Shown here piece by piece: positions 43,927-46,834 of a DNA stretch of 64,000 nucleotides. Origin of the DNA: Mycoplana rhizolycopersici. GTDB lineage: Bacteria; Pseudomonadota; Alphaproteobacteria; Rhizobiales; Rhizobiaceae. Where the stretch lies: contig NZ_JABXYK010000009.1 in the NCBI RefSeq assembly GCF_013378445.1, positions 62,001-126,000 on the forward strand, read 5' to 3'. The position numbers and the translations under genes were made by a program. The notes under the pieces are model-generated. The model was given only the letters and a program-made list of their open reading frames with translations, was not told the DNA's origin and made no database searches. How positions within the stretch are numbered: position 1 is the stretch's first letter; every line of letters starts with the position of its first letter.

Positions 43927-44122
43927 CCCACCCAAACTCGCGTCGTCATCCATGGACAATCGACGCACAGACCCGTGCGCAGTCCCGTCAGGCGGCCGCA
44001 ACGGCTGCGCAGGGACGCATGTCAACCAGCCTAGAAGATAGAACGTTTATTTTTCGTGAGCGGGAACGGGAGTGTTTTAGAGAATTCTCACTTTTACGCA
44101 GGGCGTGACGGTGAAAGAAGCG

Positions 44123-44560
44123 TCAGGGACCGCTGCCGGCCGCATTCTTACCGCGATCGGCGTGCTGCTCGCAGATCGGCGTGCAGGAGAGTACGGAACG
44201 CTCGGTCTGGCGGAAAACGCGAACCGTGTTGCCCTCGTCGATGGAGACGAGGATGCGCTCGTCCACGATCGCGTTGCCGTCCGCATCGAGCAGGACGAGA
44301 TTGGTCGTTCCGAAATTGCGGCCGGTCAGCACGATGGTCTTGGCGTCCGCGACCGTCGCATCGGCGACTTCGGCATTTCCGACGATGACCTTGCTGACCG
44401 GACGGTCGAGCTTCAGTACGCGCGCGTGATCCATATAGACCCGCATCATCTCACCGTCCTCGGCGCGGGCGACGCCCACGGCCAGACAAGAGGGAAGCAG
44501 GAGAGCGCCAATGGCGAGGCGGATGCCCCCGGAAGTCGCAAGTGTGCCAGCGGTTCTCAT
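44123..44560 (-). CDS. Pilus assembly protein with T2SS/T3SS pil_N-type domain
   Basis: A 145-residue secreted protein: signal peptide (GALLLPSCLAVGVARAED), then a domain homologous to the N-terminal part of the CpaC secretin (LDRPVSKVIVGNAEVADATV, then KTIVLTGRNFGTTNLVLLDADG). Such stand-alone copies accompany Tad loci and may help the secretin; this is inferred. The ATG at 44560 is chosen. It heads the minus-strand arm that also holds the two pseudopilin genes. Confidence 0.84.
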   Translation of the reverse strand: MRTAGTLATSGGIRLAIGALLLPSCLAVGVARAEDGEMMRVYMDHARVLKLDRPVSKVIVGNAEVADATVADAKTIVLTGRNFGTTNLVLLDADGNAIVDERILVSIDEGNTVRVFRQTERSVLSCTPICEQHADRGKNAAGSGP

Positions 44561-44799
44561 CTGCAATGTCCCGAACTGAGGTCGCCTAGAAGATGGACTC
44601 GAATGGTGAATGAAGACTTAAGGGCCCGAAGCTTTCTTCCTGTCGCACCGAAAGCTGCGCGACCGACCCTTCGGCAAAGATGATCGTAACAGGAACAATG
44701 TGGACGCTCTCAGTATAGGCGCAATATAGGAGTGCGTGATAGCGCGCATTTTAGCGGCGATGTTGCTCCTTTGTTTACCACGATATTCGGGAAGCCGCG

Positions 44800-44814
44800 T
44801 TAACGCGATGGTAA
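44800..44814. promoter_or_regulatory. CtrA-like site upstream of the Flp pilin gene
   Basis: TTAA (44800-44803), seven bases, then GTAA (44811-44814): one mismatch from TTAA-N7-TTAA. It lies 113 bases before the pilin start. In Caulobacter pilA is CtrA-controlled. Confidence 0.45.
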
Positions 44815-44817
44815 CCC

Positions 44818-44830
44818 ACTTCCTTAAGCA
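44818..44830 (+). promoter_or_regulatory. Tad promoter element, copy at the pilin gene
   Basis: ACTTCCTTAAGCA, identical in 12 of 13 positions to the sequence at 45941-45953 upstream of cpaB. Both copies are preceded by TAACC. Confidence 0.5.
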
Positions 44831-44927
44831 GCCAGCAATCCGGCCCGTGTAGGTTGCAGTCATCCGAACAACGGCAAACAGTTGTCGGACGTGCTGAACC
44901 AAAACCCTGGAGTTAGGAGAAATTCCC

Positions 44928-45116
44928 ATGACCAAGATCTTCGCTCGCTTCCTGAAGGACGAATCCGGCGCGACCGCCATCGAATATGGCCTGATCGCTG
45001 CCCTGATCTCCGTCGCCCTGATCGGCGGCGCCAGCGCCCTCGGCGGCTCCCTCGACACGACGTTTGGCAATTTGTCGGATGCGCTCGACGAAAACAACAC
45101 CCCGGCCACGCCCTGA
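44928..45116 (+). CDS. pilA: Flp/Fap-type pilin
   Basis: Major structural subunit of the Tad (type IVb) pilus, 62 residues. The leader MTKIFARFLKDESG ends at the cleavage glycine, followed by ATAIEYGLIAALISVALIGG with the conserved Glu-Tyr pair of Flp pilins at positions 5-6 of the mature protein. A strong TTAGGAGA ribosome-binding site precedes it. It has its own promoter region and a downstream terminator, as expected for the most abundant product of the cluster. Confidence 0.95.
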   Translation: MTKIFARFLKDESGATAIEYGLIAALISVALIGGASALGGSLDTTFGNLSDALDENNTPATP

Positions 45117-45161
45117 TCGGCACAGGCGCCATGCGGGCAGCCGCATCGGCATGAGAATGGT

Positions 45162-45198
45162 GAGGACCGCGCCCAAGGGGCCGGTCCTCTCTTCATTT
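45162..45198 (+). terminator. Intrinsic terminator after the pilin gene
   Basis: GAGGACCG (45162-45169) pairs with CGGTCCTC (45182-45189), and an inner GCCC/GGGC pair extends the stem; TCTTCATTTCC follows. It separates the pilin gene from cpaA. Confidence 0.8.
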
Positions 45199-45280
45199 CC
45201 GCAGCGGTCCATCGCGATCTAAAGCTGGTCGCGATTTCTTAATTTTCGTGGGGCAATACTGGGCAGGTGAGGAAGAGCTT

Positions 45281-45793
45281 ATGACCGAAGCAGCCATCTT
45301 TGTCGTATTTCCGATTTGCCTGGCGATTGCAGCGTTATCCGACCTGCTCACCATGACGATCCCCAATCGCGTCTCTGCGATTCTTCTCGCGTCCTTCATT
45401 CTTGTTGCACCGCTGGCGGGACTGACGCTCACAGAGATCGGTCTCCACCTTCTTGCCGGCCTTCTGGTCTTCGGCGTCTGTTTCATGCTCTTCGCCGCAA
45501 ACGTCATGGGCGGCGGTGACGCGAAGCTTTTGACTGCGAGTTCCGTCTGGTTCGGAATGAGTGCCTCGCTGGTGTCCTACCTGCTCTACGTGTCGGTTTT
45601 CGGCGGTCTTCTCACGCTTGTGCTACTCTCGATGCGCGCCCGTTCCAACACGATCCTGGCATCCGGCCTGCCGGTTCCCGATCACCTGCTGACGGAAAAG
45701 AAGGTGCCCTATGGCATCGCGATCGGCATTGCAGCCTTTGTCGCCTATCCGGCATCGCCCCTGATGCAGGCTGCCCTCGCCACCTTCCACTGA
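45281..45793 (+). CDS. cpaA: Prepilin peptidase CpaA (A24 family)
   Basis: Inner-membrane aspartic peptidase that removes the pilin leader. The 170-residue protein has about five hydrophobic helices. The two active aspartates lie in AALSDLLTMTIPNR and in the GxGD-type motif VMGGGDAKLL. It is the short TadV/CpaA form without an N-methylation domain. The ATG at 45281 is preceded by GAGGAAGAG. It lies 164 bases after the pilin gene, beyond a terminator. Confidence 0.94.
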   Translation: MTEAAIFVVFPICLAIAALSDLLTMTIPNRVSAILLASFILVAPLAGLTLTEIGLHLLAGLLVFGVCFMLFAANVMGGGDAKLLTASSVWFGMSASLVSYLLYVSVFGGLLTLVLLSMRARSNTILASGLPVPDHLLTEKKVPYGIAIGIAAFVAYPASPLMQAALATFH

Positions 45794-45934
45794 CGCCGCC
45801 GGCCGCGACGGCTTGCTTAAAGCGTGATTTTCGAACGCCGGGACTGAGAATTCTCGTCCGACTTTAGCCATTGCAATTAAAGATTGAAGGCAAATCCCGG
45901 CAACGTATCATAGTGTGCGCCGCGCAACGCCTCG

Positions 45935-45966
45935 TTAACCACGTCCTTAAGCAAGTCATTAACCAT
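45935..45966. promoter_or_regulatory. Putative control region of the cpaB-tadC operon
   Basis: It contains TTAACC, then ACGTCCTTAAGCA (45941-45953; matches the element at the pilin gene) and a CtrA half-site TTAACCAT (45959-45966), 59 bases before the cpaB start. Confidence 0.5.
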
Positions 45967-46024
45967 AATTATACCATTTGGTGCGCAATGTGACGATGCA
46001 ATCTTGCACGTCCAGGGGCGAACC

Positions 46025-46834
46025 ATGAAACCGGCGCGAATCATTATTCTGGCAGTGGCCGTCTTGTCGGCCGGTGTTGCAGGCTATCTCGCGCTGCAGC
46101 TCGCCCGCGGCAACAAGATCTCCGTCGCAAGCCAGCCGGTGGTCGAACGCGAACCGAGCATCAACGTGCTCGTCGCCAAGCAAAGCCTTCCGATCGGCGC
46201 GCGGCTCAGCGCCGATTCGGTCGGCTGGAGCGAGTGGCCCAAGGGCAACGTCGTCGAGGGCTTCATTACCGAGCAGGGCCGGCCCGATGCGCTGGAAAAG
46301 CTAGCAGGTGCCGTCGTGCGCATGCCGATCTTCAACGGAGAGCCGATCCGGCAGGAAAAGATCGCCGATTCCAGCAGCAAGATCATGTCTTCGCTGCTTC
46401 CCGCCGGGAAGCGGGCGGTATCGACGGAGATCTCGGTTGCCACCGGTGCCGGCGGCTTCATCCTGCCGAACGACCGCGTCGACGTCATCATGGTCCGTGA
46501 AGGCGACGACGACGCCAAGATCACGGAAACCATCCTCAACAATGTCCGCGTGCTGGCGATCGATCAGCAGATCCAGGAGAAGGACGACGGCTCGAAGACC
46601 GTCGTCGGCACCACCGCCACGCTCGAACTGACCCCCGACCAGGCAAAGGTGATCACGGTAGCCCAGCAGATGGCCGAACGGCTGCAGTTGGCGCTTCGCA
46701 GCGTGGCCGATGCCCAGGAGGAAGATACCCAGGCGGCGGAACATCTGCTGAGCGGCGGCGACGGCGCTCCGACCATCCAGGTCATCAAATCCGGCGAGAT
46801 CGTCAGGGCCAACTCGCCCGCGGCCAACCAGTGA
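46025..46834 (+). CDS. cpaB: Pilus assembly protein CpaB (RcpC family)
   Basis: Periplasmic/inner-membrane partner of the secretin, 269 residues. It starts with an uncleaved membrane segment (IIILAVAVLSAGVAGYLALQLA), followed by a SAF domain (about 46-110, NVLVAKQSLPIGARLSADSV) and a beta-rich domain (LPAGKRAVSTEISVATGAGGF, then LPNDRVDVIMV). It opens the seven-gene unit cpaB-cpaC-cpaD-cpaE-cpaF-tadB-tadC. Confidence 0.94.
   Translation: MKPARIIILAVAVLSAGVAGYLALQLARGNKISVASQPVVEREPSINVLVAKQSLPIGARLSADSVGWSEWPKGNVVEGFITEQGRPDALEKLAGAVVRMPIFNGEPIRQEKIADSSSKIMSSLLPAGKRAVSTEISVATGAGGFILPNDRVDVIMVREGDDDAKITETILNNVRVLAIDQQIQEKDDGSKTVVGTTATLELTPDQAKVITVAQQMAERLQLALRSVADAQEEDTQAAEHLLSGGDGAPTIQVIKSGEIVRANSPAANQ

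Follow-up and report, generated by a model that had tools for sequence, protein, structure and literature searches.

Three transcription units of a Tad pilus locus in Mycoplana rhizolycopersici, encoding the pilin, the secretion machinery and a divergently transcribed set of accessory proteins, carry a conserved TTAA box with a common spacing to a -10-like hexamer, which makes a testable rule for the related Rhizobiaceae compared here. CtrA, a cell-cycle regulator and response regulator of the OmpR family, probably coordinates the three units through these CtrA-type boxes, to which it is predicted to bind. The original prediction had seen the hexamer CTTAAG in all three upstream regions and read it as the shared site of a regulator of pilin, secretion and pseudopilin units that it left unnamed; a related and conserved element does stand at all three promoters, and the missing name is probably CtrA. 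We worked on a stretch of 64,000 nucleotides (the window), in which the following genes frame the promoters:

44123 to 44560, minus strand: T2SS-T3SS_pil_N protein (CpaI-like), first gene of the divergent arm (Pfam PF13629, E 4.5e-22)
44928 to 45116, plus strand: Flp pilin gene, pilA (Pfam Flp_Fap, E 1.8e-20)
46025 to 46834, plus strand: cpaB (RcpC/CpaB; Pfam RcpC, E 3.9e-30, and SAF, E 1.4e-11)

The PF13629 score was obtained with the open reading frame 44123 to 44566, for which we chose the ATG at 44560 as start. By Pfam, the right side of the locus continues from the Flp pilin through a type IV leader peptidase, CpaB, a secretin and a protein matching an ATPase family below cut-off to a T2SSE ATPase, while on the minus strand to the left the T2SS-T3SS_pil_N protein is followed by two TadE proteins. 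Homologues named cpaI, cpaJ and cpaK (CpaC-related, TadE, TadF) are likewise reported upstream of pilA1 in Sinorhizobium meliloti (PMC10934763). There, pilA1 and cpaB1 are described as one operon, so that a separate cpaB promoter is not established in that species (PMC10934763). Among 101 loci that we found by CpaB similarity, the nearest named relative is Rhizobium subbaraonis, with 99% identity in CpaB. The best 80 of these 101 loci, which are relatives and not independent samples, were used for each promoter, and counts over 81 rows include the window itself.

Within the window, CTTAAG occurs at 44617-44622, 44823-44828 and 45946-45951 and at no other place, and the two 13-mers ACTTCCTTAAGCA (pilA side) and ACGTCCTTAAGCA (cpaB side) are found where they had been placed, with TAACC before each, at pilA separated from the 13-mer by one additional base. 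The word had also been called rare in such DNA. Its location in Tad intergenic DNA is indeed unusual, but its window total is at chance level (3 copies against a shuffle mean of 2.68, with 56 of 100 shuffles reaching at least 3), and the expected spacing of about 8 kb per copy becomes 9.2 kb with the composition of the window. The whole genome holds 162 copies in 5,603,916 bases, or one per 34.6 kb, which is below the composition estimate. As an aside, the reversed word GAATTC occurs 1,769 times in the same genome, pointing to strong avoidance of CTTAAG.

Across the 80 related loci, CTTAAG is concentrated in the promoter intervals (370 bp before pilA plus 231 bp before cpaB), with 83 copies in 48,080 bp against 14 in the other 495,429 bp (ratio 61). 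Since GTTAAC is even more enriched (120 copies against 9, ratio 137), the enriched core is TTAA; among 24 tested palindromes containing two G or C, the next-ranked reaches 15-fold on five counts in total. The DNA elsewhere is probably mostly coding, which would inflate both ratios. Four loci (L081, L086, L092 and L099) carry an additional CTTAAG that begins 26 nt before the cpaB start codon, outside the boxes described below.

Viewed across relatives, each CTTAAG belongs to a longer element:

44800 to 44828, plus strand: pilA array TTAA-N7-GTAA-N9-TTAAG, with the CTTAAG at 44823-44828 as proximal box
45935 to 45964, plus strand: cpaB array TTAA-N8-TTAA-N8-TTAACC, with the CTTAAG at 45946-45951 as middle box
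44605 to 44621, minus strand: divergent-arm box TTAA-N7-TTCACC, its TTAA contained in the CTTAAG at 44617-44622

At pilA, where the upstream pair of boxes is spaced by N7 and the second pair by N9, the proximal box keeps TTAAG in 78 of 80 loci and the full CTTAAG in 46; the middle box keeps TAAC in 76 and the distal box TTnA in 66, with exact TTAA in 27. The cpaB consensus among relatives runs from TTAACC through a GTAAG-like box to TTAACCATAATTA, with box starts 12 bp apart (pairs spaced by N8). Its distal TTAA is kept in 79/80 loci, and its middle box retains TAAG in 71/80, reading GTAAG in most relatives, CATAAG in L033-L035 and CTTAAG only in R. subbaraonis (1/80); the proximal box matches TTAA-N7-T[AT][CT]ACC in 76/80. 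At the divergent promoter, a pattern that we composed after inspecting the sequences, TTAA-N7-T[TG][CGT]ACC, is present in all 80 loci, in none on the opposite strand, and in 0.1 of 80 per round of 50 mononucleotide shuffles, whereas CTTAAG is found in 27. At the proximal and middle boxes of pilA, at cpaB and at the divergent arm, 71 to 80 of the 80 loci thus preserve the box core, amid variable neighbouring columns.

Some of these counts follow from how the rows were built. Conservation of the proximal TTAA at pilA and cpaB is circular because the rows of these two promoters were anchored on it, and at pilA the base after the anchor TTAA could only be A, G or T. Where a row offered two anchors, as in seven cases at cpaB and one at pilA, the last was used; the divergent-arm counts cover all 80 loci. 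CTTAAG was rejected as the motif itself because its spelling varies while the TTAA core (TAAG at one box) stays constant. The expectation that the motif would recur upstream of orthologous Tad genes therefore holds for a related element at all three promoters but not for the spelling CTTAAG, which is kept in only 46/80, 1/80 and 27/80 loci at pilA, cpaB and the divergent promoter, respectively. In the genome of M. rhizolycopersici, the three-box pattern TTAA-N7/8-KTAA-N8/9-TTAA occurs at three forward places (pilA, cpaB and L112); its rarity alone proves little because the reversed control has two. The third array (L112, positions 1501-1528 on contig C5) is located some 64 bp upstream of an open reading frame on the minus strand, whose product looks like an outer-membrane protein.

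What unites the three promoters is the distance from one box to a putative -10 element:

44850 to 44855, plus strand: pilA -10-like hexamer TAGGTT, 26 nt after the proximal TTAA
45986 to 45991, plus strand: cpaB -10-like hexamer CAATGT, 27 nt after the proximal TTAA
44590 to 44595, minus strand: divergent -10-like hexamer CATCTT, 26 nt after the start of the TTAA

At pilA, 76 of 81 rows have the form xAxxxT at +26 from the proximal TTAA, as do 80 of 80 loci at the divergent promoter; at cpaB, 75 of 81 rows have it at +26 or +27. The remaining offsets from 18 to 31 have it in at most 8 rows, but +24 at cpaB has it in 32 of 81. A CtrA promoter is expected to carry a site at -35 at constant distance from the -10, and with the hexamers taken as putative -10 elements this is the arrangement found. 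Measured from these hexamers, CTTAAG takes the place of the proximal box in the divergent arm and at pilA, but that of the middle box at cpaB. The 12-of-13 match between ACTTCCTTAAGCA and ACGTCCTTAAGCA consequently does not define one shared site, contrary to how it had been read, and the lesson is that two promoters can match this well by coincidence, through boxes that do not correspond. Judged by eye, the cpaB CTTAAG could have served as a -35 element with TTATAC 17 bp downstream, a candidate that we rejected because the next TTAA sits at the common distance. A sigma-70 scan of 44500-46100 returned four sites (shuffle mean 0.7), none with a hexamer on any of the three proximal TTAA.

Several observations bear on CtrA as the regulator. 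The genome encodes a CtrA orthologue, which was the one match at 84% identity to the Caulobacter CtrA sequence (next best at most 38%) and scores 427.5 bits with NF045991 (cut-off 350). The CtrA site is given as TTAA-N7-TTAA (PMC11264516) and for S. meliloti as TAA-N7-TTAAC, and spacings other than 7 are said to bind CtrA weakly in Caulobacter (PMC3616915). This N7 spacing is seen at the divergent box in 80/80 loci and at the proximal cpaB box in 76/80. Against CtrA speak the noncanonical spacings within the arrays (N8 and N8 at cpaB, N9 in the second pair at pilA), the TTAAG instead of TTAAC at pilA and the distal pilA box with its exact TTAA in only 27/80 loci.

Genome-wide, TTAA-N7-TTMACCAT occurs at six places (reversed control, none): the divergent Tad box, three sites near recognisable genes and two with no clear partner. 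By family matches that all stay below curated cut-offs, the three genes look like ftsK, an OmpR-type regulator and an exopolysaccharide sugar transferase; the OmpR-type regulator, which we take to be Rem, has CtrA as its best NCBIfam match (69.6 bits against a cut-off of 350). The sites near these three genes (L115, L117 and L120) lie on the strand opposite the neighbouring gene, unlike the Tad box, which counts against CtrA, with the proviso that TTAA itself is palindromic. Of the two sites with no clear partner, L116 and L118, the family search covered the neighbour of L118, which has a sub-cut-off match only. CtrA motifs are reported for ftsK in S. meliloti (PMC3616915) and predicted for succinoglycan genes in Agrobacterium tumefaciens (PMC7003649), and the cpaA and cpaB promoters of Caulobacter are occupied by CtrA (PMC6169604). 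Our literature search, partly limited to portions of the sources, returned no report of CtrA binding at cpaB or at the divergent arm from Rhizobiaceae.

Taken together, the CTTAAG words would be parts of CtrA-type TTAA arrays in the -35 region of the pilA, cpaB and divergent promoters. CtrA would occupy the half-sites and activate all three units jointly, and pilin, secretion channel and accessory proteins may then be made in the same phase of the cell cycle. Through a TTAA box shared in this way, pilus assembly would be linked to the cell-cycle circuit of CtrA.

The strongest alternative, which we consider unlikely, is that another shared regulator such as the MucR silencer, GcrA or a different OmpR-type protein reads the arrays, either by itself or jointly with CtrA. 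In Caulobacter, MucR acts as a repressor at CtrA-activated promoters of G1-phase genes, with pilA named among the genes of that timing, and one promoter of this type is under conserved MucR control in S. meliloti (PMC4241560). Pilus genes, cpaB among them, are regulated by GcrA in C. crescentus but not in Brevundimonas subvibrioides (PMC7987155). The array pitches of 12 + 12 and 11 + 13 bp, which are noncanonical for CtrA, would also suit such a protein, whereas the constant distance from box to -10-like hexamer fits an activator at -35 and the divergent box has N7 spacing in all 80 loci. It is very improbable that the TTAA boxes are core-promoter -35 elements without a dedicated regulator: the constant 26-27 nt to the hexamer would be expected of them, but conserved boxes lie 12-13 and 24 bp farther upstream at pilA and cpaB, and the divergent promoter has a second half 11 bp downstream. 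Least credible of all is chance emergence of CTTAAG in AT-rich intergenic DNA, which agrees with the window total and is probably right for the spelling at cpaB (1/80 relatives) but is otherwise contradicted by conservation: of the six boxes or box pairs counted, all except the distal pilA box retain their cores in 71 to 80 of 80 loci.

Downstream of its boxes, the pilA promoter region holds a further conserved feature:

44864 to 44888, plus strand: pilA 5' leader hairpin, 8 pairs, with covariation

It follows the predicted pilA start and pairs as CCG-A-NCAAC / GTTGNCGG. Across 81 sequences, 97.2% of cells are paired against 91.2% in shuffles, two-sided changes affect four of the eight pairs (40 cells), and none of 500 shuffles reaches the covariation score; one pair uses six standard types, yet is unpaired in 13/81. 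The alignment comprises the window and 80 distinct sequences from 96 loci given, including 16 of the 30 loci L002-L031. Loci with a short or misplaced pilin hit, or with no such hairpin by eye (among them L015, L025, L028 and L029), had been left out, and the alignment therefore favours the structure. A covariance model of the leader gave 49 matches at E ≤0.01 in 47 of 121 genomes, many of which had also supplied the alignment: 45 of the 73 genomes of the same family (M. rhizolycopersici included) and 2 of 48 outside it. All but two of the 47 have a single match, and for 44 of the 49 matches a comparison by eye places a CpaB match on the same contig no more than 3 kb away. At gathering scores, Rfam had no match in window positions 44000-46500 or in the loci of six relatives, and in evalue mode one match (E 2.4) fell elsewhere than the hairpin. 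The case for the hairpin rests on covariation, as the single-sequence fold of the window leader is unremarkable (z -1.21; 25 of 200 shuffles fold as well). Among the matches listed in a title and abstract search we found no mention of it, and it is possibly an undescribed RNA element separate from the boxes. More tentatively, the three-box, 24-bp arrays of pilA and cpaB may be a Tad-specific noncanonical layout that is read by CtrA, or by CtrA and a partner, and acts with this structured leader to tune pilin output, a combination that we regard as possible but doubtful.

CtrA-type boxes at pilus promoters are of a known kind, and the conserved control sites are real. One of the closest parallels is S. 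meliloti pilA1, the same kind of gene in the same family, which is reported to be bound by CtrA and, in a lacZ fusion, activated by it (PMC4433202). As at the pilA promoter of C. crescentus with its four CtrA sites, multiple TTAA half-sites precede the pilin gene and one overlaps the -35, but here three half-sites have their starts across 24 bp whereas there four bipartite sites are described, the others at least 31 bp upstream of the first (PMC11264516). Six CtrA half-sites are likewise reported before the pilin gene in the ctp promoter of A. tumefaciens, which differs in its reported spacings of 6 and 7 bp (PMC11264516). To these systems our comparison adds, as read from the sequences of these relatives, a box layout common to all three Tad promoters, including those of cpaB and the divergent arm.
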